This document shows positions 26,810 to 41,916 of a stretch of 64,000 bases of DNA, one piece after another. The stretch comes from Acidobacteriota bacterium. Lineage in GTDB: Bacteria; Acidobacteriota; Vicinamibacteria; Vicinamibacterales; UBA8438. Both the position numbers and the translations under genes were made by a program. The notes beneath the pieces are model-generated. The model searched no databases and had not been told where the DNA came from. It saw only the letters and a list, made by a program, of their open reading frames with translations. How positions within the stretch are numbered: the first letter of the stretch is position 1; each line of letters begins with the position of its first letter. The stretch is from positions 1-64,000 of the forward strand of contig JAPOVI010000121.1 in assembly GCA_026708265.1 (NCBI GenBank), given 5' to 3'.

Positions 26810-27847
26810 ATGCGCGGGTTCAGGAGGAGAATTTCCTTGCGCCGATCCAATCTTCGGTGGCCGGCGGGCGTCGTGTCCGCCGCCGTGTGTGTCGCCGTCG
26901 CCGCGTGCGGCGGCGGGGGGGGCGAGGCGGGTGACGCCGCGCCGTCCCGACAGTTCCTCAGCATGGGCACGGCGCCGCCCGGCGGCGCCTTCTTCGTCGT
27001 CGGCAGCGCCCTGGCCGAGGTCGTGAACGAGACCGCCACCGGGCTCGGCTACAACGTGACGGCCGAGGCGACGAGCGGCTCACAGGAGAACATCCGACGC
27101 CTGGCGAGCGGCGAGCTCGACTTCGCGCTGTCGAACGCCGCGATCACCTACTTCGCGGTGCGCGGCAGCGAGGGGTGGGACCGCGCCTACCCGGTGCGCT
27201 CGGTCATGACGCTCGCGCCCAACGTCGCGCTCTTCGTCACGCAGGCCTCGTCGGGCATCGAGCGCCTGGACGATCTGCGCGACCGACGGGTCACGGTCGG
27301 TCCGGCGGGCGCCGGGTTCGAGTACTTCGTCGGCCCGCTGCTCGAGGCGCACGGCGTGAGCTACGAGGACTTCTCGCCGCTCAACGCCACGCAGCAGGCC
27401 GCCGTCGACATGCTCACCGACGGCTCGGCGGATGCGACATTCCTGGGCGGCGCCGTGCCGACCGCCTCGATCACGCAGGCCGCCGCATCGATGGACATCA
27501 CGTTCATCCCCTACGGGGACGACGAGAAGATGCGTCTGGTCGACCAGTACCTCTTCTTCCGGCCGGCGACGATCCCGGCCGAGACCTATCGCGGCCAGAC
27601 CGAACCGTTCGAGGGCCTCGACGTCGGCTCGATGCACGTCATCACGTCGGCCGACGCCCCGGACGATCTGGTCTACAACGTGACGAGGCTGCTCTACGAG
27701 AACCGGGAGCTGGTCGTCGAGAAGCATGCCGCGGGCCGCGCCATCAACCCGAACAACGTGGTGCGCGATACGGGCACGGAGTTCCATCCGGCAGCGATTC
27801 GCTACTACCAGGAAGCCGGCGTCTGGCCGCAACAGGCAGCGCCGTGA
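26810..27847 (+). CDS. TAXI-family TRAP transporter solute-binding lipoprotein
   Basis: A 345-residue periplasmic binding protein. A lipoprotein signal ends at Cys33 (VAVAAC, then Gly-rich). The mature part starts with FLSMGTAPPGGAFFVVGSAL and contains TSGSQENIRRLASGELDFAL, the typical TAXI ligand site. TAXI proteins deliver small carboxylates or amino acids to TRAP permeases. Only 13 nt after the VOC gene and overlapping the permease gene by 4 nt, so it may transport a precursor or product of the upstream group. Confidence 0.9.
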   Translation: MRGFRRRISLRRSNLRWPAGVVSAAVCVAVAACGGGGGEAGDAAPSRQFLSMGTAPPGGAFFVVGSALAEVVNETATGLGYNVTAEATSGSQENIRRLASGELDFALSNAAITYFAVRGSEGWDRAYPVRSVMTLAPNVALFVTQASSGIERLDDLRDRRVTVGPAGAGFEYFVGPLLEAHGVSYEDFSPLNATQQAAVDMLTDGSADATFLGGAVPTASITQAAASMDITFIPYGDDEKMRLVDQYLFFRPATIPAETYRGQTEPFEGLDVGSMHVITSADAPDDLVYNVTRLLYENRELVVEKHAAGRAINPNNVVRDTGTEFHPAAIRYYQEAGVWPQQAAP

Positions 27848-29811
27848 CGCCGGAGACCCCACCGCCGCGCGACGTCCGGCTCCTGGTGAGCGGCGGCCTC
27901 GGCGTGCTGCTGTGCGCCTTCACCCTGGTGGAGGTGAACTACCCGCTGCTCGCTCCCCAGAGCCGGCTGGCGTTCTTCGCGCTGGTGGGGCTGACGCTGT
28001 GCTTCCTCAACGTCCCCCTGCACCCTTCCCTGAAGGACGATCCGCGGGCGCGCGCGTCGGATGTCGTGCTGGCCGTGCTGGCCGCGCTCTGCTGCGGCTA
28101 CATCGTCATCCAGACGGATCCGATGTTCGACAGGTGGTGGGTGGACGGTCAGACCCTCGGGAACCGGGCCGGCTTCGAGACGGCCTACGACACGGCGATC
28201 GGCCTGCTGGGCCTGCTGCTCGTGATCGAGGCGGCCCGGCGCGCCCTCGGCCTGGCCCTGCCGCTGCTGGCGGGCGCCTTCATCCTCTACGCATTGTTCG
28301 GATCTGCGTTTCCGGACTGGCTGTTCCCGCACCGCGGCTACACGATCCCGCGTGTCGTCGCCCAGACGTTCCTGCACAGCCAGGGCATCTTCGGCGTGGC
28401 GCTGAACGTGATGTTCACCTACGTCTTCCTGTTCGTCATCTTCGGCGCGTTCCTCGAGGCCACCGGCGCCACGCGCTTCATCGTCGACTTCGCCGAGCGG
28501 GTCTTCGGGCGCAGCTCCGGCGGGCCGGCCAAGGTGGCGGTCCTGAGCAGCGGGCTGATGGGCTCGCTCTCCGGCAGCGCCGTCGCGAACACCGCGACCA
28601 CCGGGACGTTCACGATTCCGATGATGCGGAGCGCCGGCTTCCAGCCCGTGACGGCGGCCGGCGTGCAGGCGGCGGCGAGCTCCGGCGGGGCGCTCATGCC
28701 CCCGGTGATGGGCGCGGGCGCCTACATGATGCTCGAGATCGTCGATCCGCCGGTGACGTACCTGGAGATCATCCGGGCGGCGCTCATTCCCGCGCTCCTG
28801 TACTACCTGTCCCTGATCCTGATCGTGCACTTTCACGCGAAGCGCGTGGCGATCGCGTCGCCGGCGGAAGCGCCGACCAGGGAGCCGGACACGCCCGACG
28901 CGGTGGCGCGCTCGCGCGCGGCGGGCTTCGTCTTCGCCTCGGCGCTCGGCAGCCTCATCCTGTTCCTGGTGCTCGGCTACACGGCGTTCCGCGCGGTGAC
29001 GCTGTCGCTCGTGGTGATCGTGCTGGTCAGCAGCCTGAACAAGGCGACGCGCCTCGACTGGCGCTTCACGATGGTGAGCCTGGTCACCGCGGCGCGCGGG
29101 GTGGTGCCGCTGGTGGCAGCCGCCGCCTGCGTCGGCATCATCATCGGCGTCGTGACCCTGACGGGTGTCGGGACGCGCCTGCCGGCGACCATCATTCCGC
29201 TCGCCGAGCAGAGCCTCTTCCTGGCCCTGATCCTGATCATGATCTCGTCGATCGTGCTCGGGATGGGACTCCCCTCCGCCGTCTGCTACCTCCTGATGGC
29301 GACGCTCATCGGACCGGTGCTCGGCAACCTGGGCGTGATCCCCCTCGCCGCGCACCTGTTCATCTTCTACTTCGGGATGATGTCGATGGTGACGCCGCCG
29401 GTCGCGCTCGCGGCCTACGCGGCTTCCTCGATTGCCGGCACCCGCATCATGCCGACCGGCCTGGCGGCGTTCCGCTTCGCGCTGGTGGGCTTCACCCTGC
29501 CGTACATGTTCATCTACCGGCCTGAACTGCTGATGCTGACGCCTTCCGGCGAGCCGGCCGGCTGGCTCGCGATGCTGTTGCCGGTCGCCATCGCCACGCT
29601 CGGCGTCACCTGCTTCGCGGCCGGGATCGCCGGTCAGCTCAGCCGGCCCCTGGGGCTCGGCCTCCGTCTCGCCATCTTCGGCGCGGCGGGGCTGCTGCTC
29701 GCTCCCGGCCCCACGGCCTCGCTCGCCGGCCTCGACCTCGCGATCTTCGACGTCGCGGGCGTCGTCCTCTTCTGCGTCGTGCTCGCCGTCGACCGGCGCT
29801 CGACGACCTGA
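27844..29811 (+). CDS. TRAP transporter fused (4TM/12TM) permease
   Basis: A 655-residue fused DctQM-type permease energised by an ion gradient. The N-terminal four-helix Q domain (about 10-160) is followed by a DctM domain with SGLMGSLSGSAVANTATTG and SSGGALMPPVMGAGAYMM (about 235-290), and GMGLPSAVCYLLMATLIG and MVTPPVALAAYAAS in the second half. The GTG start overlaps the TAXI gene stop (GTGA). The substrate is unknown. Confidence 0.92.
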   Translation: MTPETPPPRDVRLLVSGGLGVLLCAFTLVEVNYPLLAPQSRLAFFALVGLTLCFLNVPLHPSLKDDPRARASDVVLAVLAALCCGYIVIQTDPMFDRWWVDGQTLGNRAGFETAYDTAIGLLGLLLVIEAARRALGLALPLLAGAFILYALFGSAFPDWLFPHRGYTIPRVVAQTFLHSQGIFGVALNVMFTYVFLFVIFGAFLEATGATRFIVDFAERVFGRSSGGPAKVAVLSSGLMGSLSGSAVANTATTGTFTIPMMRSAGFQPVTAAGVQAAASSGGALMPPVMGAGAYMMLEIVDPPVTYLEIIRAALIPALLYYLSLILIVHFHAKRVAIASPAEAPTREPDTPDAVARSRAAGFVFASALGSLILFLVLGYTAFRAVTLSLVVIVLVSSLNKATRLDWRFTMVSLVTAARGVVPLVAAAACVGIIIGVVTLTGVGTRLPATIIPLAEQSLFLALILIMISSIVLGMGLPSAVCYLLMATLIGPVLGNLGVIPLAAHLFIFYFGMMSMVTPPVALAAYAASSIAGTRIMPTGLAAFRFALVGFTLPYMFIYRPELLMLTPSGEPAGWLAMLLPVAIATLGVTCFAAGIAGQLSRPLGLGLRLAIFGAAGLLLAPGPTASLAGLDLAIFDVAGVVLFCVVLAVDRRSTT

Positions 29812-29945: not shown

Positions 29946-31691
29946 TCAGCGCGACCCGGCGACCTTCACCGTGACGACGTCGATGCCGTGGTACTTCTTG
30001 TGACGCACCGACGACGCGTAGTGCCGCAGCAGGCGGAACGAGATCTCGGTCTCGCTCTCCTCCGGAGTCTCCGCACGGTCCCCGAGGTAGGTCAGCCGAT
30101 CCTCGATGTTCTGCTCGTCGAAGACAGCCAGGAACTCCATCTCGACGGCCTCGTGACCGGGGCGCGCCACGAGGATCATGCGCGGCGGCGTCCGGGCGGC
30201 GTGATCCCCGCGCACCTGCAGCAGGCACATCAGCGCCTCCTCGCCGGCCGCTCGCAACTGCTCCACCGACTGCCGGCTCCACTGCATCCGGCCTCCGAGT
30301 TCGCGCAGGAGAGCGTCGATGCGCGGCAGCGCCGAGGAATCGAGCGCCGCCTCCAGCCGCCGGCGCCGCCGACCCGTGAGCTCCAGGAAGGCGGTCATCA
30401 GAATGGCGGCCAGTACCCCGACGGTCATGCCGTTGCCGAGCGAAGCGCTCCAGGTCGCACCGAGCACGCCCCGAAACACGCTTCCGTCCTCGAGGGCCAC
30501 GCCGAGCGCAAGCGCCACTCCCACCACGAGTCCCCGCTGCGGATCGAGGCCGTCCTGCACGACCGTGCGCATGCCCTCCACCACCAGGAGCCCCATGATG
30601 ATCAACAGAAAGGCCCCCATGACGGGGCCGGGCACGGAGAGCAGCACCGCCGTCAGCTTCGGCAGGAACGCCAGCGCGAACAGGATGCCGCCGATGGCGT
30701 ACCCGACGCCGCGCGCTGCGACGCCGGTGAGATTGATGAGCGAGACGCTCGACGGCAGGTAGGCGATGACGGGCGGCGTCACGGCGACCCCGGACAGCAG
30801 GATCCCGACGCCGCTGGCGTTGAGCGCGCCCTGCACCAGCCGAAAGTCGGTCGCGTGCGGGCGCCGCGACGACGCTCGCTGAATGACCACCCCGTCGCTG
30901 CTGGTCTTGACGGCGGCGACGAGGGCCACGATGGTGAACACCGGCAGCAGGGCCCAGAAGCGGCCGTCCGGCGTGAGGTCGATTCCCGGCCAGCCGGCGA
31001 GCCCCGGAAGGTCGAACCAGGGAGCGCCGGCAACGGGCCGCGCGTCGTACAGCCCGAAGAACGAGGCGGCGGCGCAGCCGGCCAGGATTCCGCTGAGCGG
31101 CGCCCACAGGCGCCAGACGCCGGAGGCGCGGAGCGCCATCGCGCTGGCGACGACCAGCGTCACGCCGGCGACGATCAGGGCGCCGGCCGGGGCGCCTTCG
31201 GACGCGTCCGCGATCCTGCCGACCGCGATCGGCATGACCGTGACCCCGATCAGCATGAGGGCGGTGCCGGAGACGATGGGCGTGATGATCCGCCGCAGGA
31301 ACGGCAACCACGCCGCCATCGCGAACTGGAACACCGACGCGACGACGATGAGGCTCGCCAGCGTCGCGAGCCCGCCCTCCGTCAGCGCGACGACGGAGAC
31401 CGCGATGAAGTGCGGCCCCGCGCCGGTCATGAGGATATGGCCGGCGCCGAACCGACCCAGGTGAGCCGCCTGCAGGGCGGTGGTGACCCCGGCGATGATC
31501 AACGCCGCGAAGACCGCCCACGTCAGGTAGACGTCATCCTCGCCGGCCGCGCCGACGACGATGGTCACCATCAGGACCGTGTTCGCCAGGACGAGCACGA
31601 CGCCCTGGAGGGCTACGCCGAGCGTCACGAGCGGCGGCGGCCGCTCGTTCGGCTCGTACCGAATGCGGCGATTGATGCGAGGTCCGCTCAT
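29946..31691 (-). CDS. NCS2 nucleobase permease with RsbW-like C-terminal domain
   Basis: A 581-residue protein. Residues about 20-430 have the 12-14 helices of uracil/xanthine permeases (PLVTLGVALQGVVLVLANTVL, HILMTGAGPHFIAVS, VTVMPIAVG, GVAVTPPVIAYLPSSVSLI). The last 150 residues are soluble and resemble a GHKL ATPase of the RsbW type: an EEALMCLL helix where RsbW has its N-box helix, and FRLLRHYASSVRHKKYHG before a terminal strand. The ATP-binding N-box Asn and the DxGxG glycine motif are not clear, so it may be a non-ATPase relative. It converges with the TRAP permease gene. Confidence 0.78.
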   Translation of the reverse strand: MSGPRINRRIRYEPNERPPPLVTLGVALQGVVLVLANTVLMVTIVVGAAGEDDVYLTWAVFAALIIAGVTTALQAAHLGRFGAGHILMTGAGPHFIAVSVVALTEGGLATLASLIVVASVFQFAMAAWLPFLRRIITPIVSGTALMLIGVTVMPIAVGRIADASEGAPAGALIVAGVTLVVASAMALRASGVWRLWAPLSGILAGCAAASFFGLYDARPVAGAPWFDLPGLAGWPGIDLTPDGRFWALLPVFTIVALVAAVKTSSDGVVIQRASSRRPHATDFRLVQGALNASGVGILLSGVAVTPPVIAYLPSSVSLINLTGVAARGVGYAIGGILFALAFLPKLTAVLLSVPGPVMGAFLLIIMGLLVVEGMRTVVQDGLDPQRGLVVGVALALGVALEDGSVFRGVLGATWSASLGNGMTVGVLAAILMTAFLELTGRRRRRLEAALDSSALPRIDALLRELGGRMQWSRQSVEQLRAAGEEALMCLLQVRGDHAARTPPRMILVARPGHEAVEMEFLAVFDEQNIEDRLTYLGDRAETPEESETEISFRLLRHYASSVRHKKYHGIDVVTVKVAGSR

Positions 31692-31725: not shown

Positions 31726-32010
31726 CTACAGTCCTTCGACGATGGTCGAGTCCCGGGTGCACACGCCGTCGGTCTGCCGCAGGGACTCCTGGACCCTCGA
31801 ATCCGCGGTGCAGGCCTTCGCCGTCTCGAAGTCGGGGAATCGGACGATGACGTTGCGGCCGCGACCCTGGCCGGTAACCTGTTCGCAGCGGCCGCCCCGG
31901 GCCAGGAACTCGCCGCCGAACTCCTTCACGGCCTCCACGGCCGGCCCGATGTGTTTCTCGTAGACCTCGGCGTCATGAACGTCGACGCGCATGATGAAGT
32001 ACGCGGGCAT
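31726..32010 (-). CDS. DUF1330 family protein
   Basis: A 94-residue ferredoxin-like (dimeric alpha+beta barrel) protein. MPAYFIMRVDVHDAEVYEKH and GGEFLARGG, NVIVRFPDFETAKAC fit DUF1330, a family without established function. It uses ATG with GGAGGA about 6 nt upstream; the frame stays open far upstream through repeats. It lies 34 nt upstream (ahead on the same strand) of the NCS2 permease gene and is probably co-transcribed with it. Confidence 0.82.
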   Translation of the reverse strand: MPAYFIMRVDVHDAEVYEKHIGPAVEAVKEFGGEFLARGGRCEQVTGQGRGRNVIVRFPDFETAKACTADSRVQESLRQTDGVCTRDSTIVEGL

Positions 32011-33482: not shown

Positions 33483-34916
33483 ATGGACTTCCGAAGCTAC
33501 GAGCTCGACGCGCCCGTCTACGACGAAATGTTTCTGCCGGACGGCACCCCGCGCGAGCACAGCCGGGCTCTCCACGACACGTTGCGCGGCCTCTCCGCCG
33601 ACGACCTCGCCACCATTCAGTCCCGCGTGACCCGCTCGTTCGTGAGCGAAGGCATCACCTTCACCGTCTACGGCAGCGAGGAGGCGGAAGAACGCATCAT
33701 CCCCATCGACTGCGTGCCGCGCATCCTGTCGGCGGCCGAATGGCGGCTGCTCGAAACCGGGCTCACGCAGCGGATGCGGGCCGTGAACCGCTTCCTGGTG
33801 GACGTCTACGGGGATGCCCGCGCCGTGGCCGACGGCGTCGTCCCGGACGACATCGTCTTCGGCTGCCCTCAATTCCGCCCGGAGATGCGCGGCGTCCGCG
33901 CCCCGCGCGACGTCTGGGCCGCCATCTGCGGCAGCGACATCGTCCGCACGCAGGACGGCTTCATCGTGCTGGAGGACAACCTCCGGGTGCCGTCGGGCGT
34001 CTCCTACATGATTGCCAATCGGAAGGCCGTGAAGTCGAACCTGCGCCGCCTGTACCGCAGTTGCCGCGTGCGCGAGGTGGAGCACTACGGGCGCCTGCTG
34101 CGGCGGACGCTCGTCGAGCTTGCTCCCGAGGGGCGGCACGACCCGAGAATCGCGCTGCTGACGCCCGGCGTCCACAACTCCGCGTTCTACGAGCACGTGT
34201 TCCTCGCCCACGAGATCGGAGCCGAGCTCGTGGAGGGACGCGACCTCCTCACCCGGAACGGCCTCGTCTACATGCGGACGACGGAGGGGCTGCGGCGCAT
34301 CGACGTGATCTACCGCCGCGTGGACGACGATTTCCTGGACCCGGAGGTCTTCCGCGCGGACTCGATGCTCGGCGTCCCGGGCCTCCTGGAGGCGTACCGG
34401 CTGGGCGGGGTGAGCCTCGTGAACGCGCCCGGCACCGGAGTTGCGGACGACAAGAGCGTGTACCCCTACATCCCGGACCTGATCCGCTACTACCTGGGCG
34501 AGGACGCCCTGCTGGCGAACGTGCCGACGCACATCTGCCGCCGGCCGGAAGAACTGGAGTACACGCTCGACAATCTCGAGAACCTCGTCGTGAAGCAGGT
34601 CGGCGCGTCGGGCGGCTACGGCATGCTGGTCGGCCCGCACGCCACGCCGGAGGAGCGCGAGTCGTACGCGGCCGCGGTGCGCAAGGACCCGGCCGGGTAC
34701 ATCGCGCAGCCGGTGCTGGATCTCTCCCGCGCCCCGTGCATCATCGAGGGGCGTGCGGCAGCGCGGCACGTGGACCTGCGGCCCTTCGTCCTGACGGGGC
34801 GGGAGACGCGGCTGGTGCCCGGTGCGTTCAGCCGCGTGGCGCTCCGCGAAGGGAGCATCGTCGTGAACTCGAGTCAGGGCGGAGGGGGCAAGGACGTCTG
34901 GGTGCTCGACGAATGA
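33483..34916 (+). CDS. Circularly permuted ATP-grasp protein (DUF404/DUF407)
   Basis: A 477-residue member of the circularly permuted ATP-grasp family, predicted peptide-bond-forming ligases that work with alpha-E proteins. Recognisable parts are YDEMFLPDGTPREH at the start, PFDCVPR-like IPIDCVPRILSAAEW, FIVLEDNLRVPSGVSYM, VKQVGASGGYGMLVGP and DLRPFVLTG near the end. Its start follows a long open upstream frame; the ATG directly precedes the conserved N-terminus. It overlaps the alpha-E gene by 4 nt (ATGA). No transglutaminase-like or peptidase gene follows, unlike the common operon. Confidence 0.88.
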   Translation: MDFRSYELDAPVYDEMFLPDGTPREHSRALHDTLRGLSADDLATIQSRVTRSFVSEGITFTVYGSEEAEERIIPIDCVPRILSAAEWRLLETGLTQRMRAVNRFLVDVYGDARAVADGVVPDDIVFGCPQFRPEMRGVRAPRDVWAAICGSDIVRTQDGFIVLEDNLRVPSGVSYMIANRKAVKSNLRRLYRSCRVREVEHYGRLLRRTLVELAPEGRHDPRIALLTPGVHNSAFYEHVFLAHEIGAELVEGRDLLTRNGLVYMRTTEGLRRIDVIYRRVDDDFLDPEVFRADSMLGVPGLLEAYRLGGVSLVNAPGTGVADDKSVYPYIPDLIRYYLGEDALLANVPTHICRRPEELEYTLDNLENLVVKQVGASGGYGMLVGPHATPEERESYAAAVRKDPAGYIAQPVLDLSRAPCIIEGRAAARHVDLRPFVLTGRETRLVPGAFSRVALREGSIVVNSSQGGGGKDVWVLDE

Positions 34917-35905
34917 TCCTCTCGCGCAACGCGGAAGACCTCTACTGGATGGGCCGCTACCTGGAGCGGACGGAGCATCTCTGCCGGCTCCTGAGCTGCC
35001 AGGTCGAGACCCTCGTCGACCGGCCGGTGCGGGAGATCAACTTCGGCTGGCGGCGCATCTACGACTCGCTGAGCCGCCGGCCGCCGGGGCCCGCCATCTA
35101 CTTCGCGGCGAGCGACGACGAAGAGGACGACGACTACACCCTGGCCGACTCGTTCACCCTGGCCGACGACCTCACGTTCGAGCCGACGAATCCCGACGCC
35201 GTGCGTTCCGGGCTCGCCCGCGCGCGCGAGAACGCCCGGCAGGTGCGGCACCGCGTCAGCGGCGAGACGTGGACCTGCCTGAACGAAACCTGGCTCGGCT
35301 TCCGGGCCCGCACCATCGAGGAGATCTGGAAGGCCGCGCCCGAGGCCTTCTACGTGGGCGTCGCCCACGAGCTGAACACGCTCGCCGGCGTGGCGCAGAC
35401 GACGATGTACCGGGACGAAGGCTGGCGCTTCCTGCAGCTCGGAAGGTTCACGGAGCGCGCCCAGTTGACCATCGCGCTGCTGCTCGCCCAACTCTCCCTG
35501 GTCCGGGCGGAACCGCGAGCCTCAATCGAGGCCGACTGGTCGAGCCTGTTGCGGATCTGCCAGGCCGTCGACGCCTACGCGCAGTGTCACGGCGTCGAGA
35601 TCGTCGCCGACCGGGTGCTGGACCTGCTGGCGGGCGACGTGCTGCTGCCCCGCTCCCTGTGCCGCGCGCTCGATGGCGCCGCCGGCACCCTGGACGCCGC
35701 CGCGCTCGGCCCGGGCCCCATCGCCGAGGCGAGGCAGCTGGCGCACGACCTGGCCGCCACGACGCGCCGCCGCTGGCCGCGGCGGCCGAGCCTGGACGAC
35801 CGCGCGGATCGCCTCCGCCACATGCAGCGCGAGTGCCGTGCGCTGCACGACCTGGTGTACGCCGCCTACATCGGCTACGAGGCCGAGGGCGCCCCCGTCC
35901 GCTAG
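34913..35905 (+). CDS. Alpha-E domain protein (DUF403)
   Basis: A 330-residue helical protein beginning MILSRNAEDLYWMGRYLERT, the hallmark of alpha-E proteins (conserved Arg-Asn, Trp-Met-Gly-Arg-Tyr, Glu-Arg). It contains WRFLQLGRFTERAQLT and ends with REC-RALHDLVYAAY. An acidic insert (DDEEDDDYTLAD) lies around residue 65. It is always paired with the ATP-grasp partner encoded just upstream. The precise substrate is unknown. Confidence 0.88.
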   Translation: MILSRNAEDLYWMGRYLERTEHLCRLLSCQVETLVDRPVREINFGWRRIYDSLSRRPPGPAIYFAASDDEEDDDYTLADSFTLADDLTFEPTNPDAVRSGLARARENARQVRHRVSGETWTCLNETWLGFRARTIEEIWKAAPEAFYVGVAHELNTLAGVAQTTMYRDEGWRFLQLGRFTERAQLTIALLLAQLSLVRAEPRASIEADWSSLLRICQAVDAYAQCHGVEIVADRVLDLLAGDVLLPRSLCRALDGAAGTLDAAALGPGPIAEARQLAHDLAATTRRRWPRRPSLDDRADRLRHMQRECRALHDLVYAAYIGYEAEGAPVR

Positions 35906-35940: not shown

Positions 35941-37230
35941 ATGAACGAACTTGCCACCGCCGAGTTCCGGTTCGTGTTCAACACCCTGTCGTTCCTCATC
36001 TGGGGTGCGCTGGTGATGTGGATGTGCGCCGGCTTCACCATGCTCGAGTCGGGGTCCGTGCGCACGAAGAACGCCTCCGTCATCTGCCTCAAGAACATCG
36101 GACTCTATGCGATCGCCGGTCTCGCCTTCTACGTCATCGGCTACAACCTGATGTACGTCGACGTCGCGGGGTGGATCGGCTCCGTCTCCTTCCTGTACGG
36201 CCCGTCGGCCGACGAGGTGGCGCTGGTGGCGGGCGACGAGAGTGCGCGCGCCGCGGTGGTCGCGACCGACTACGCGGTCATGTCCGACTGGTTCTTCCAG
36301 ATGGTGTTCGTGGCGACGGCGGCGTCGATCGTCTCCGGCGCGCTGGCCGAGCGCGTCCGGATCTGGTCGTTCTTCGTGTTCACGCTGGTCCTCACGGGCG
36401 TCATCTACCCGATCGTCGGCGCCTGGACGTGGGGCGGCGGCTGGCTGGGGGCGCTCGGCTTCCAGGACTTCGCCGGCTCGACCATCGTGCACGGCACCGG
36501 CGGGTGGGCGGCGCTGGCGGGCGCGCTCGTCGTCGGGCCGCGGCGGGGCAAGTTCCGTGCGGACGGCACGGTCCTCATGACGCCTCCCTCAAACGTTCCC
36601 GTCGTGACGCTGGGCGTGTTCATCCTGTGGTTCGGGTGGTTCGGCTTCAACGGCGGCTCGCAACTCGCGCTGGCGAGCGCGGCCGACGTCGTCGCCATGA
36701 GCCACGTGCTCGTCAACACCAACCTCGCGGCGGCGGCCGGGGTCATCGCGGCCATCGCCGTCTCGCGGCCGATCCTCGGGCGCGTCGACCTGCTGGCGGG
36801 CCTGAACGGCGCCATCGCGGGGCTGGTGGCGATCACCGCGGGACCGACCTTCACGACCCACTACTGGGCGATCCTGATTGGAGCCCTGGGGGCCGTCATC
36901 TGCACGGCGGGCCTGAAGCTCCTCGAGCGCGTGCGGGTGGACGACGTGGTCGGCGCCGTGCCCGCCCACCTCTTCGCCGGCATCTGGGGCACGCTGGCGG
37001 CCAGCATCGCGGCCGGCGCCAATCCGGCGATCCAGTTGCTCGGCGTGGTCGCGATCGGGGCGTTCGCCTTCGCCGCTTCGTGGCTGACCTGGATCGCCAT
37101 CGACCGGACGATGGGCGCCCGCGTGTCGCGCCAGGTGGAGCAACTCGGGGGGGACGTCGCGGACCTGGGAATGGAGGCCTATCCGGAGTTCGTGCTCATG
37201 CCGGAGCCGGACGAGGCGGCGGCCGAGTAG
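35941..37230 (+). CDS. amtB: Ammonium transporter AmtB
   Basis: A 429-residue inner-membrane ammonium channel with 11-12 helices. The twin pore histidines lie in IVHGTGGWAAL and VPAHLFAGIWGTL; MCAGFTMLESGSVRTKN matches the conserved second helix start, and FGWFGFNGGSQLAL the NPG-like core. There is no signal peptide-type first helix and no GlnK gene nearby. It starts 35 nt after the alpha-E gene. The TAG stop is the first bases of a dispersed repeat copy. Confidence 0.93.
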   Translation: MNELATAEFRFVFNTLSFLIWGALVMWMCAGFTMLESGSVRTKNASVICLKNIGLYAIAGLAFYVIGYNLMYVDVAGWIGSVSFLYGPSADEVALVAGDESARAAVVATDYAVMSDWFFQMVFVATAASIVSGALAERVRIWSFFVFTLVLTGVIYPIVGAWTWGGGWLGALGFQDFAGSTIVHGTGGWAALAGALVVGPRRGKFRADGTVLMTPPSNVPVVTLGVFILWFGWFGFNGGSQLALASAADVVAMSHVLVNTNLAAAAGVIAAIAVSRPILGRVDLLAGLNGAIAGLVAITAGPTFTTHYWAILIGALGAVICTAGLKLLERVRVDDVVGAVPAHLFAGIWGTLAASIAAGANPAIQLLGVVAIGAFAFAASWLTWIAIDRTMGARVSRQVEQLGGDVADLGMEAYPEFVLMPEPDEAAAE

Positions 37231-37396: not shown

Positions 37397-37738
37397 TCAG
37401 CCGGTCACGACGAGCGCCGCCTCGCGCGAGTCCTTGATCGGGATGATGCGGTCGAATCCGCTGATGCGGAAGACCTCGTGGATGTGGTCCTTCATCGCGC
37501 AGAGCACGAGCGTGCCGCTGCTCCCCTGCAGCTTCTTGGCCGCAATCAGCAACACCCGCATGCCGGAGCTGCTGATGAAGTTGAGGCGGCTGAAGTCGAT
37601 CACCAGCCGCTGCTCGCCGCCGGCAATGCGCTCCATGACCAAGGCCTCGAACGAGCGCGCGTTCGCGCTGTCGAGGCGGCCGACCGGCAGCAGGATCAGC
37701 GTCTCGTCGGAACGTTCCTCGGCGACTTCGATGTCCAT
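37397..37738 (-). CDS. STAS-domain anti-sigma factor antagonist (RsbV-like)
   Basis: A 113-residue single STAS domain that would bind the RsbW-like kinase when unphosphorylated. LVIDFSRLNFISSSGMRVLL carries the phosphorylatable Ser57 in the SSSG loop (replacing DSSG). Last gene of the partner-switching operon: phosphatase, kinase, antagonist, on the minus strand. No sigma factor is encoded in the window. Confidence 0.87.
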   Translation of the reverse strand: MDIEVAEERSDETLILLPVGRLDSANARSFEALVMERIAGGEQRLVIDFSRLNFISSSGMRVLLIAAKKLQGSSGTLVLCAMKDHIHEVFRISGFDRIIPIKDSREAALVVTG

Positions 37739-37842: not shown

Positions 37843-38274
37843 CTACGCAGCGACGGCCAGGTTCCGCTCCATCGTCAGGTGGTTCCTGCCGGCGGTGAAC
37901 TCGTAGCGCACGCGGTCCGCCATCGACTTCACCAGATGCAGGCCCAGATTGTCGGCGCTGCGTTCCTCCAGCGGCGACTCGATGTCGGCGGCTCCGGCGT
38001 GTCGCGTCGGATCGAACGGCGCGGCGTTGTCCGTCAGGGTCAGAACCAGCCGGTCGTCGTCGACCCGGAGACCGATCTCGATCCGCGGCTCGGCAACGCC
38101 GGCGAACCCGTGCGTCACCGCGTTGGCGATCAACTCGTCGAGGGCCAGGTTGACGGCATAGACCTGCGGCTCCGCAAGACCGTTCGCGTCCCCGAACTCC
38201 TCGACGATCCTCGACACGTTGCCTACGCCGGACAGGCGGGGCGCGACCGAAACGCGAAGGTCGTTGAACGTCAT
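37843..38274 (-). CDS. RsbW-like serine kinase/anti-sigma ATP-binding protein
   Basis: A 143-residue GHKL ATPase. The N-box reads LALDELIANAVTHGF (Glu and Asn for Mg-ATP), then LTLTDNAAPFDP (G1-box Asp with the first Gly changed), and NLGLHLVKSMADRVRYE (G2 region). It would phosphorylate the STAS partner and sequester an unseen sigma factor or effector. AAAGGGA precedes the ATG. A full repeat copy separates it from the upstream phosphatase gene. Confidence 0.87.
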   Translation of the reverse strand: MTFNDLRVSVAPRLSGVGNVSRIVEEFGDANGLAEPQVYAVNLALDELIANAVTHGFAGVAEPRIEIGLRVDDDRLVLTLTDNAAPFDPTRHAGAADIESPLEERSADNLGLHLVKSMADRVRYEFTAGRNHLTMERNLAVAA

Positions 38275-38366: not shown

Positions 38367-38488
38367 GGCCCGCCATTCGTCGCCGCGACCGCCGGGTCGC
38401 GCCGCGGCCTCCGCTCGGCGCCCAACCCAATCCTTCAGTGAGTCTGCGCCTCCCGTGGGAGGCGGCGCCGTTCTACGGCGCGGACTCC
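38367..38488 (-). repeat. Dispersed palindromic repeat, full copy in reverse
   Basis: Nearly identical over about 120 bp, in reverse orientation, to 16594-16716, including the GAGTCCGCGCCGTAGAACGG arm. On the minus strand that arm encodes the final ESAP and TAG stop of the RsbU-like gene. Confidence 0.88.
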
Positions 38489-41016
38489 TGCTGCCGGCGC
38501 AGGACGAGGCAGGTCATGTCGTCCGCGGCCGGCATGCCGGCCGAGAAGGTCCCAATCTCGCGCCACGCGTGGTGCACGACCTCCGAGGGCGTCCTGCCCG
38601 CCGTGCCGACCAGCGCGGCCTCCAGCCGGTCCTTGCCGAACAGCTCCCCGCTGCCGTTCACCGCGTCGGTCAAACCGTCCGTGTACAGGAACAGGGTCTC
38701 CCCGGGCTGCAGCACCTGCCGCCGGCTCGCGTACGGGAACTCCTCCATCACTCCCATGGCCAGGCCTCCCGTTGCCGGCAGGGTCCGGCAGACGTCGTCG
38801 GCACCTATCAGGTAGGCCGGGTCGTGGCCCGCACAGACGTACTCGATGGCCCCCGCCTCGGGATCGACGACGGCCAGCATGGCGGTCACGAACAGGCCCA
38901 TGGGGTTCTGGCGGCAGACCCGGTCGTTCGCCGCGCTGGTGACCGCGTCGATGCCGTCGCACTCGGCGAACGCCGCCTTGATGGCGGCCTGCGAGGCGGC
39001 CATGAACAGCGCGGCAGCGACCCCCTTGCCCGACACGTCCCCGACGACGAGACAGCGGCGGCCGGGCGCCGGCTCGGTGACGTCGACGAAGTCGCCGCCG
39101 ACCCTCTGCGCCGGGGTCATCCGCGCGCAGGCGGAGAAGACGCCCATCTCGACCGTCCCCTCGCGTACGAGCGCGGCCTGCACGACCTTGGCCATCTCCA
39201 GGTCCTGCTCCATCGCTTCCTTCGCGACCCGCAGGTTGTGGTTGCTCTCCTCCAGGTCCCGCGTGCGCTCCGAGACCAGCATCTCGAGCTGTTCCTCGCG
39301 GTTGAAGACCTGCACGGTCATGGCCGTGAAGACGCGCGCCAGGCTGCCGATCTCGTCCTGCCGGCGCAGCACCTCCTCCATCTCCTCGTCCTCGGGCTGG
39401 TTGCCCGCCTCGACCTGCCGCGCCGCGTCGGCGATGACCTCGATCGGGTGCGTCAGCCACCGCGTGCCCCAGGCCGCCGCGAAGGCGGTGAGCCCGAGCA
39501 GCGCGAACGCAATCAGCGTCGTGTTCAGCGCCTCCCCCTGCACGGTGAGCGCGATGTCGTCCAGGCTCACCGAGATGGCGAGGCCGCCGATCGGAATGCC
39601 CCCCGTGTTGATGAGGGGCGACGCGACCCAGATGCCGCGATCCTCGGGCGCCAGGAGGCTGAGGGCCGAGGCGCTCACGACGCGGCCCTGCTCCAGCGCC
39701 GAGGACATGACCGACTCCACCCGGCCCCCGAACGCGCTGGCGGCGCCCGAGGCGCCCGGGGCGGCCAGCTCCGCTCGCGGCGCCGCGGCGGTAACGTCCC
39801 CTTCCAGGTTGACGACCCAGAGCGCCTCCAGGTTCCGCGAGCGCACCAGGACATCGGCCTCGCGCTGGTAGACGGAGTAGAGCAAGTTGCCGGCGCTGCT
39901 CTCGATGGGGATCCCGACCTGCGACAGGCGCGACCCGTCCGCAGCGGCAACGGCCACGTATTTGTAGACGGCGCCGTCGGAGACGCGTGGAGCGGAGGCG
40001 TGCTCGAGGAGCGGTTCCGACCCGTCGAGCAGCGCCCCGTAGTCGTCGAAGTACGGCACCTCGCCCCCCGCGGACGGATCCGTTGCCGCCACGCTCGAAT
40101 AGACGGGCTCTCCGTTGCCGTCCACGACGCGGATCTCGCCTATCGCGGTCGTCGAGACGATGCGGGCCAGTCTCTGGTCGATCTCCGCCGCGGACCACTC
40201 GGCCGCCTCGGCGGCCGACACGAAGCGGTCGACGATGGTCGCCTGCACCGCCATGTGCTGGCCCAGAATGCCCTCGATGACGGCCGAGACGTCCGCCCGC
40301 TGCGACGTGTAGACGTTGGTCAGGATCTCCTGCTCGCCGAAGACCAGCGCGTTGCCGATCTGCACGATCCGCCGCCTGTCGACGCCGCCGACGCCGACAT
40401 ACTTGTAGACCTCCTGATCGATCTCCCGCACCTGCGCCGGCTGCGTGATGAAGTCGTCCCCGCCCGGCGGCGCGGCGAGCAGCACGTAGAACTTCGACGC
40501 CTGCGGCTGAACCGCCGGGTCCGGATCGAACTGGAACGGGATCAGCTCGCCGCGATCGTCGCGCACGTTGGTGAGGTAGGAGAAGCCGGCCTCGTTGGTG
40601 ATCCAGAACTCGTCGAGCACCGTGTTGGCGGTGATGTCCTCGAGGATGCGGATGACGCGCGGGGGGTCGAAGCCGGCCTGCTCCGCCGCGTCGACCAGGT
40701 GAGCGGCGATGCGCGCCTGGGCGATCATCTGCCCGTCGAGCGTGGCATCGAGCGTGCGGGCGACGTTGGCCAGCGAGATTTCGCCCATCTCCGCGAAGCT
40801 CGCCGAGAGCAGCTCCGCGAGGTGCGTGGCGGCTCCCTCCGCCTCGTCACGCAGCACCGTGGCCGCGTTGTAGAGCAGCGTGGCCGACGTCGCGGTGATC
40901 GTCACGGCGAGCAGGACGGCCAGCGCCAGGAAGCCGCGGACCGCCAGCCGCATGCGCGCCGGGGTCCGCCACGCCTCGAGGGACCGGGATAGCACCCCGC
41001 CGTTGGACTTCGCCAT
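38473..41016 (-). CDS. RsbU-like PP2C (SpoIIE) phosphatase with membrane sensor
   Basis: An 847-residue membrane protein. The first helix is at about 26-48 (LALAVLLAVTITATSATLLY), a large extracytoplasmic dCache-like sensor follows to about 500, then a second helix (TTLIAFALLGLTAFAAAW), a HAMP-like segment (ITHPIEVIADAARQVE-type), a short coiled coil (LEESNHNLRVAKEAMEQDLE) and a SpoIIE phosphatase domain with GGDFVDV, VGDVSGKGVAAALFMA and ADDMTCLVL (metal Asp residues). It would dephosphorylate the STAS partner on sensing an external signal. Its last four residues come from a repeat element. Confidence 0.9.
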   Translation of the reverse strand: MAKSNGGVLSRSLEAWRTPARMRLAVRGFLALAVLLAVTITATSATLLYNAATVLRDEAEGAATHLAELLSASFAEMGEISLANVARTLDATLDGQMIAQARIAAHLVDAAEQAGFDPPRVIRILEDITANTVLDEFWITNEAGFSYLTNVRDDRGELIPFQFDPDPAVQPQASKFYVLLAAPPGGDDFITQPAQVREIDQEVYKYVGVGGVDRRRIVQIGNALVFGEQEILTNVYTSQRADVSAVIEGILGQHMAVQATIVDRFVSAAEAAEWSAAEIDQRLARIVSTTAIGEIRVVDGNGEPVYSSVAATDPSAGGEVPYFDDYGALLDGSEPLLEHASAPRVSDGAVYKYVAVAAADGSRLSQVGIPIESSAGNLLYSVYQREADVLVRSRNLEALWVVNLEGDVTAAAPRAELAAPGASGAASAFGGRVESVMSSALEQGRVVSASALSLLAPEDRGIWVASPLINTGGIPIGGLAISVSLDDIALTVQGEALNTTLIAFALLGLTAFAAAWGTRWLTHPIEVIADAARQVEAGNQPEDEEMEEVLRRQDEIGSLARVFTAMTVQVFNREEQLEMLVSERTRDLEESNHNLRVAKEAMEQDLEMAKVVQAALVREGTVEMGVFSACARMTPAQRVGGDFVDVTEPAPGRRCLVVGDVSGKGVAAALFMAASQAAIKAAFAECDGIDAVTSAANDRVCRQNPMGLFVTAMLAVVDPEAGAIEYVCAGHDPAYLIGADDVCRTLPATGGLAMGVMEEFPYASRRQVLQPGETLFLYTDGLTDAVNGSGELFGKDRLEAALVGTAGRTPSEVVHHAWREIGTFSAGMPAADDMTCLVLRRQQESAP

Positions 41017-41070: not shown

Positions 41071-41916
41071 GAGGCGCCAGATCACGAGGAACTGCGCCAC
41101 GTTGTCGCTGCCGTCCGCCCCGAGCTTGTTGCCCCAGTACTGGTACTCCACGCCGACGAAGAGCTCGTTGCCGGTCCCGTTCAACGCCTTGCTCAGGTCC
41201 CACGTGAGCTGCGGCTGGGCGAGCACCCAGCTCTTCACCTCGCCGCCGGCGGGCTTGATCGTCGTCGCGCCGATGTACTCCGCGTGGCCGGTGAAGAGGA
41301 ACGACTGACTGCCGATGTCGAAGACGGCTCCCCAGTTGACGTCGAACATGAAGCTGTCGCTGGTCCGGGGGGCAGCCCCGGGGCCGACGCCGTCGCTGGC
41401 GTTCAGGAACGCGGTGATGTCGGTGTTGAGGAACAGGAAGCCGGGGACGTCCCAGGCCAGGCGGACCCCGGGCAGATACTTCATGAAGTTCGCGTCGGCA
41501 TCGAAATTGATGCCGCCGATCAGCGCGATGTCGCGCACCGGCCCGCCCCCGACGGTCCGGCCCGTCAGCTTGCTGAGGCTCAGCGTCGGATACCACTCGC
41601 CGTAGAGGTCCAAATCGTTGAAGCCGTCGCTCAACTGGTCGTCCAGGAAATCGATGAAGAAGAAGCTGTCGCCGTACGACCAGCTCATGGCCTGCTGGAT
41701 CGTGAGAATCGACGTCGGGCTCTGTCGTCCCGTGAACGGATTCGTCAGCCGGCCGTACTGATAGTGGAACTCCATCTGCGCGGAGGCGCACGACGCAGCG
41801 GCCAGCCACAAGGCCGCCGTCGTCGCAGCGCGGCGCAGACCGCGCCCGAGTGCGCGCCGCGGCACGCGGGCGGACGCCCGCACGGGCGGAAGCGCAAGTC
41901 TGGTCAACCGTGCCAT
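41068..41916 (-). CDS. Tsx-like outer-membrane channel protein
   Basis: A 282-residue protein with a long signal peptide (Arg-rich start, AALWLAAASCASAQ) and a beta-barrel: alternating strands from MEFHYQYGRL, WSYGDSFFFIDFLDD (as in Tsx, the nucleoside channel) to a C-terminal strand VAQFLVIWRL ending in a hydrophobic residue. It would admit nucleosides or similar small molecules. First gene of the RsbU-RsbW-STAS operon (51 nt before the phosphatase). GAGGTGA lies 6 nt before the ATG. Confidence 0.72.
   Translation of the reverse strand: MARLTRLALPPVRASARVPRRALGRGLRRAATTAALWLAAASCASAQMEFHYQYGRLTNPFTGRQSPTSILTIQQAMSWSYGDSFFFIDFLDDQLSDGFNDLDLYGEWYPTLSLSKLTGRTVGGGPVRDIALIGGINFDADANFMKYLPGVRLAWDVPGFLFLNTDITAFLNASDGVGPGAAPRTSDSFMFDVNWGAVFDIGSQSFLFTGHAEYIGATTIKPAGGEVKSWVLAQPQLTWDLSKALNGTGNELFVGVEYQYWGNKLGADGSDNVAQFLVIWRL

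Follow-up and report, generated by a model that had tools for sequence, protein, structure and literature searches.

This locus raises the question of whether a permease that carries a signalling-type domain at its C terminus could connect a transporter fold to a bacterial partner switch. The window, that is the whole stretch of 64,000 nucleotides analysed from an Acidobacteriota contig (JAPOVI010000121.1), contains on its minus strand a two-domain open reading frame of 581 residues with an ATG start (29946-31691). Its GC content by codon position, 0.71/0.49/0.92, is of the coding type. The preliminary description of this stretch took the product for a nucleobase permease with an RsbW-like extension that might sense purines or pyrimidines. 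The fold of both domains, the residues at their ligand sites, and the distribution and gene neighbourhood of the fusion were analysed.

Architecture and predicted fold

The first 437 residues (30381..31691, minus strand) form an SLC23/NCS2 (Xan_ur_permease) membrane domain, assigned by PF00860 and by the full-length model. The PF00860 match covered residues 26-399 (E 2.4e-36) with 125.7 bits against a curated cut-off of 27. The nearest NCBIfam family was the xanthine permease pbuX (TIGR03173), whose curated score of 414.15 bits was not reached by the window protein (179.1 bits). The full-length AlphaFold model, built on a 24-row alignment, had a mean pLDDT of 76.5. Its Foldseek comparison with the PDB returned UapA, UraA or SVCT1 at ranks 1-13 with E values down to 2.4e-15, followed by SLC26Dg; as modelled, the window protein has the UraA/UapA fold. 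The membrane domain is thus of the kind found in the SLC23/NCS2 (NAT) proteins UraA, UapA and XanP.

The remaining residues, 438-581, together with the stop codon (29946..30380, minus strand), constitute the tail, for which an RsbW/SpoIIAB-like domain is predicted. The structure prediction gave an RsbW-type fold and not an unrelated one. The tail-only AF2 model from 39 rows had a pLDDT of 79.7 and a pTM of 0.74, being weak around residues 105-109 of the model. In both models the elements follow the order strand-helix-helix-strand-strand-helix-helix-strand-strand. The Foldseek ranks 1-21 of the tail model were all RsbW, SpoIIAB, UsfX or an RsbU-RsbW protein (best E 2.2e-8). VIA-align superposed the model on Bacillus subtilis RsbW with Z 15.2 and 2.0 A over 114 residues; Z was 12.3-15.2 for the RsbW/SpoIIAB/UsfX group, compared with 11.0 for SiaB, 10.8 for LvrC and at most 6.9 for histidine-kinase domains. 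The tail thus shares its predicted fold from end to end, and its element order, with the anti-sigma kinases of HATPase_c_2 (PF13581).

The sequence relation is more distant. Profile-profile comparison (hhalign) of window-type tails with a set of 23 RsbW-type domains, drawn both from the window and from genomes related to it, gave E 2.7e-4 and a probability of 42, covering the whole domain. The Pfam search for HATPase_c_2 gave no match to the window protein itself, and gave matches to 3/24 full-length relatives and 6/39 tails (best 5.2e-6); one relative, G166:C310, had 27.5 bits with its neighbours in frame, the Pfam cut-off being 27.4. A search of the tail profile against PDB chain sequences gave chance matches only (Notch, S100; best E 0.58). 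The tail is RsbW-like and gave no STAS match, and is thus not a C-terminal domain of SLC26/SulP type. The kinship to RsbW was recognised from the fold, from profile-profile comparison and, in a few members, from Pfam. The RsbW-type fold is firm for a prediction, and the sequence support for kinship of the window-type tail is moderate.

The tail lies in frame behind the permease in the loci read. Its dN/dS was 0.07-0.15 against the three closest homologues and 0.40-0.42 against L004 and L006. The matches across genomes, the in-frame position and the dN/dS values indicate that residues ~438-581 are a real domain. The extension of about 150 residues given in the preliminary description was thereby confirmed.

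Residues of the nucleotide and substrate sites

The ATP motifs, which had been called unclear, turned out to be lost. When the tails and the RsbW set were aligned together, 39/39 tails had the N-box Glu, 0/39 the N-box Asn, 0/39 the G1 Asp and 2/39 the second Gly of G2; all four residues were present in 23/23 RsbW domains. Glu485 (30237..30239, minus strand) is this N-box Glu and the sole residue of the ATPase motifs that remains. The residues invariant across the 39 tails were E485, L490, N528, R553, L555 and H564. By these residues the tail is probably a pseudo-kinase, and binding of ATP in the usual mode is most likely not possible. The tail thus differs from RsbW, SpoIIAB and UsfX in having lost the N-box Asn, the G1 Asp and the G2 glycines and in being fused to a 14-TM permease, and resembles them in the N-box Glu and in having STAS genes as neighbours in several lineages.

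The substrate site of the membrane domain was altered as well. Profile alignment to UapA and UraA, together with the relatives, placed Ser314-Ser315 (30747..30752, minus strand) at the Gln-Asn position of the NAT signature in TM10, and on the same bases Lys262 (30906..30908, minus strand) at the substrate-binding Glu of TM8 (UapA E356 / UraA E241). The UapA residues at these positions presumably have roles in reading the substrate. The complete permeases without a tail had the NAT Gln-Asn in 9/9 cases, and no RsbW-tailed row had it. At the TM8 position, 50 of the 75 RsbW-tailed rows (the 76 rows classed as fused, minus a Rhodococcus row whose tail is an OHCU decarboxylase) had E or D, and the clade of the window, in which TM3 was also changed, had Lys. 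For UraA, a triple alanine variant with E241 and E290 among the changed residues is reported as a negative control for transport (PMC11362169). Because the Gln-Asn pair is lost family-wide and the TM8 Glu has become Lys in its clade, a nucleobase role of the window protein is unlikely; it could instead be an altered transporter or act as a receptor. These losses, and the added tail, set the RsbW-tailed family apart from UraA, UapA and XanP.

Anion transporters of TRAP or DASS type adjoin fusions without the TM8 acid in the genus of the window (26873-29811 in the window), in genus g3 (L095) and at L102:6717-8021, L089:8042-9472 and L105:8396-9847. No TRAP or DASS neighbour was found at the other Lys-type loci L006-L008 and L096-L098, and a connection of these anion transporters with the missing TM8 acid is only suggestive.

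Distribution and phylogeny of the fusion

The search for the fusion in other genomes gave tail matches in 27/193 genomes of the class and 17/297 genomes of the phylum, and a further clade in Pseudomonadota. The window genome encodes eight PF00860 proteins, seven of them with the tail (one cut by the contig end); the eighth is shorter, without a tail, and we take it to be AzgA-like. Three MAGs, two labelled Chloroflexi, contained four or five tail matches each, for which binning errors are possible. The tail was retained in more than 60 distinct readable proteins.

The second set of fusions was found on plasmid records of Azospirillum, Thiodictyon and Pseudoroseomonas, where they are annotated as solute carrier family 23 protein and the tail is unnamed. 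With the Azospirillum protein as query, matches at E 1e-40 came from 4/398 genomes sampled in the phylum to which a Methylobacterium genome belongs, and one of these, G838, lacks the tail; with the G552 protein, 12/297 genomes of its order matched at E 1e-50. The profile of nine tails of this pseudomonadotal clade matched the RsbW set with E 7.8e-10 and probability 96.5, and the window-type tails with E 1.9e-5 and probability 78.

The permease-domain tree was built from 54 domains hand-picked from 94: 35 of acidobacterial type, nine pseudomonadotal and ten without an RsbW tail, the last including the OHCU-tailed Rhodococcus protein. Each of the three groups lay on one side of a branch (supports 100/99, 100/99 and 99/94). 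A single origin of the fusion does not follow, since the tree is unrooted and compatible with one or two origins.

Several candidates were rejected. Rhodococcus qingshengii (H3) appeared by coverage to be a third fused lineage, and its tail was an OHCU decarboxylase (PF09349, E 4.4e-31), which is a different fusion; this permease-OHCU decarboxylase gene lies on a plasmid (L147:7875-9785) upstream of urate genes. The Methylobacterium match L010, like G838, had no tail. No credible stand-alone copy of the tail was found among the tail-profile matches: L027 and L182 were frame-shifted or split fusions, L065 was a chance match, and L125 and L139, short matches to the second tail profile, were ordinary RsbW proteins. 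A hypothetical protein of Thiodictyon (L146:11854-12375) is similar to the final part of the fusion next to it, the last membrane helix included, and was taken for a partial copy in decay. At L009:4884-6170 one frame joins residues 1-207 to 397-581, so that half of the permease is lost and the tail kept, either by deletion or by assembly error. Neighbouring pairs of fusions were seen at L087:7237-12192, L104:6822-10587, L166:8287-12042 and L146:5503-9512, as if they were hetero-oligomers or duplicates.

Gene neighbourhood in the window

A gap of 34 bp separates the permease start from an upstream gene for a DUF1330 protein (31726..32010, minus strand; PF07045, E 7e-22); in L006 and L008 the fusion has a DUF1330 neighbour as well, but downstream. 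Convergent with the fusion is a TAXI-type TRAP pair (26873..29811, plus strand) of an NMT1_3 binding protein (PF16868) and a DctM-type permease (PF06808, E 5.4e-79), which also stands beside the orthologues in L093, L094 and L095.

The complete RsbU-RsbW-STAS module announced in the preliminary description was verified by Pfam, 5.7 kb from the permease and behind four opposite-strand genes. It comprises, all on the minus strand, a STAS protein of the anti-anti-sigma type with an ISSSG motif (37397..37738; PF01740, E 1.2e-20), a stand-alone RsbW-type kinase with mostly kept ATP motifs (37843..38274; PF13581, E 1.1e-21) and an RsbU-type HAMP-SpoIIE phosphatase (38473..41016; PF07228, E 8.8e-47). 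An ammonium transporter gene (35941-37230, plus strand; PF00909, E 2.9e-93) adjoins the STAS gene, convergent with the cluster, and this neighbourhood is kept in L093 and L094. A gene pair of a circularly permuted ATP-grasp protein and an Alpha-E protein lies between the fusion and the cluster (33483-35905). L093 and L094, of the same genus, retain the cluster, and it was not found beside the orthologues L095-L098 read in genera g3 and g10; for this reason, and for its distance from the fusion across opposite-strand genes, it is not strong evidence of a dedicated partner.

The proposed sensing of purines or pyrimidines was not supported. Besides the replaced substrate residues, none of the neighbours identified was a nucleobase-pathway gene, and the Tsx-like porin that had been suggested could not be substantiated: the candidate, a secreted-looking protein upstream of RsbU (41071-41910, minus strand), had no Pfam match up to E 10.

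STAS genes beside the fusions

For a link to partner switching the cluster of the window is a weak argument; independent support comes from relatives elsewhere, which lie directly beside STAS genes, at some loci with RsbW and SpoIIE. In the acidobacterial family f58, where 11 genomes have tails, one paralogue showed the order fusion-GPP34-STAS on one strand in 10/10 readable loci, the copy of the eleventh genome not being among them. In G963 the fusion and the STAS gene are divergently transcribed, and GPP34 lies downstream. The GPP34 (Golgi phosphoprotein 3 family) gene was located at L101:10660-11331 (the same place as L074), at nine further f58 loci and at L211:10682-11356; the trio of fusion, GPP34 and STAS occurs in two phyla. 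For GPP34 with STAS, only unrelated papers were found in the open-access literature, judged by titles and the beginnings of abstracts.

The fusion, STAS and RsbW genes of G552 (L165) stand in tandem. In G973, G1056, G1100 and G945 the fusion and a STAS gene face away from each other, their matched regions ~260-280 bp apart, and SpoIIE and RsbW genes lie further on; the assignment by Pfam covers G1100 only. The Thiodictyon plasmid carries two fusions within 9 kb of STAS, SpoIIE and HATPase_c_2 genes. In all seven STAS proteins that were inspected, the serine of the ISSAG-type motif is present.

The fusion family is associated with STAS genes above chance. Seven of 37 fusions in 18 genomes had a STAS gene within 3 kb against 0.29 expected (Poisson P 2.7e-8), and with four similar genomes counted once four independent cases remained (P 2.4e-4), the P values being indicative as the 3 kb distance was set after seeing the cases and G292, G181 and G239 were hand-picked. 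Neither the window, with its distance of 5.7 kb, nor Thiodictyon, represented by its plasmid alone, is counted among these cases. Among the pseudomonadotal loci a STAS gene was present in the stretch read at 7/21 and absent at 14/21. Among the acidobacterial and 'Chloroflexi' loci read, STAS, RsbW or SpoIIE was nearby only in the genus of the window and in the one f58 paralogue. The window genome has seven fusions and five STAS genes, so there is no one-to-one pairing. The switch module has its own HAMP-SpoIIE sensor at several loci, and a second sensor is hence not required.

Another membrane protein, L207:4620-5771, ends in HATPase_c_2 (E 3.3e-15) and lies between an SBP_bac_3 protein and a SpoIIE phosphatase. 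Its N-terminal part had no Pfam match and looks like an amino-acid ABC permease, making it possibly another transporter-fold/RsbW fusion. Similar modules were seen in L205, L206 and L208.

Proposed mechanism and alternative explanations

From the computed two-domain architecture, the predicted RsbW-type fold, the losses of nucleotide- and nucleobase-site residues and the STAS association we infer a mechanism in which the docking of STAS proteins on the tail would link an SLC23-fold receptor or transporter to partner switching. This is our preferred reading, held tentatively and with slightly more doubt than belief. Like RsbW and the SLC23 proteins, the tail would probably form a dimer; it would keep the surface that grips unphosphorylated STAS, and phosphorylation of STAS by it would not be possible. 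An extracellular ligand, probably anionic in the clade of the window, would drive the elevator motion of the membrane domain; this motion would alter the hold of the tail on STAS and with it the amount of free STAS, by which an anti-sigma factor or a different partner would be released. The signal would most likely run from membrane to STAS, as in a transceptor, and the same contact could serve the reverse direction, with STAS gating transport. The receptor reading is favoured by the loss of the usual substrate residues. A broader proposal is a new class of membrane transceptors that would mirror SLC26-STAS: SLC23-fold receptors, no longer recognising nucleobases, would answer an extracellular ligand by sequestering STAS with an ATP-dead RsbW tail. 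Such a class, rather unlikely as it stands, would have members in Acidobacteriota, Pseudomonadota and Chloroflexi-labelled MAGs, some of them beside a GPP34-family gene.

The foremost alternative is a role within the protein itself, in which the tail is a regulatory or assembly domain of an ordinary transporter, serving stability and transport as the STAS domain does in SLC26, without signalling, and the STAS neighbours regulate transport or are incidental. This is a real possibility, though we consider it doubtful. TM14 is followed by the RsbW-type tail in the one case and by the STAS tail in the other, and deletion of the STAS domain is reported to impair transport by SLC26Dg (PMC6497670). 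That only one of the genome's eight PF00860 proteins lacks the tail and that most family members have no switch gene nearby also fit such a role, which does not predict the repeated STAS neighbourhood or the fusion/GPP34/STAS trio in two phyla.

The flow could also be reversed: a STAS protein controlled by SpoIIE and RsbW would bind the tail and thereby turn the transporter on or off, so that the partner switch would control uptake instead of reading it. The SpoIIE/RsbW/STAS module beside the fusion in G973, G1056, G1100, G945, G552 and Thiodictyon is in line with this, and the HAMP-SpoIIE sensor that the module frequently has would make the permease the output; the loss of substrate residues, however, is no less compatible with a receptor than with a regulated transporter, and this reading is judged improbable. 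That the tail is a partnerless GHKL-fold relic, functionally unrelated to anti-sigma factors and tolerated at the C terminus, would explain the lost nucleotide site but is very hard to believe given the six residues invariant in 39 tails, the low dN/dS against close homologues and the retention of the tail in so many distinct proteins.

Among the closest known systems are the SLC26/SulP anion transporters, which share with the fusion the 7+7 membrane fold and a partner-switching-type domain after TM14. Their C-terminal domain is STAS itself, whereas the tail of the fusion has the predicted fold of the STAS partner. A precedent for an SLC-fold transporter in a signal pathway is DauA, the Escherichia coli SLC26 protein, with DctA and DcuS; DauA acts differently, through DctA and a two-component system, and is reported to contact DctA via the transmembrane domain (PMC5703999). 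No paper on an NCS2/SLC23 permease fused to a HATPase or RsbW-type domain was found in the open-access literature.

Conclusion

The proteins annotated as solute carrier family 23 that carry such tails are, judging by their substrate-site residues, probably not nucleobase transporters. A possible role of bacterial GPP34 in partner switching would merit a test. SLC23, the sister family of SLC26, carries at the same position the other half of the pair, the STAS-binding fold. If the tail binds STAS, a small-molecule transporter fold would have a directly testable connection to partner switching, and it would be worthwhile to seek a common logic behind the SLC26-STAS and SLC23-RsbW fusions.
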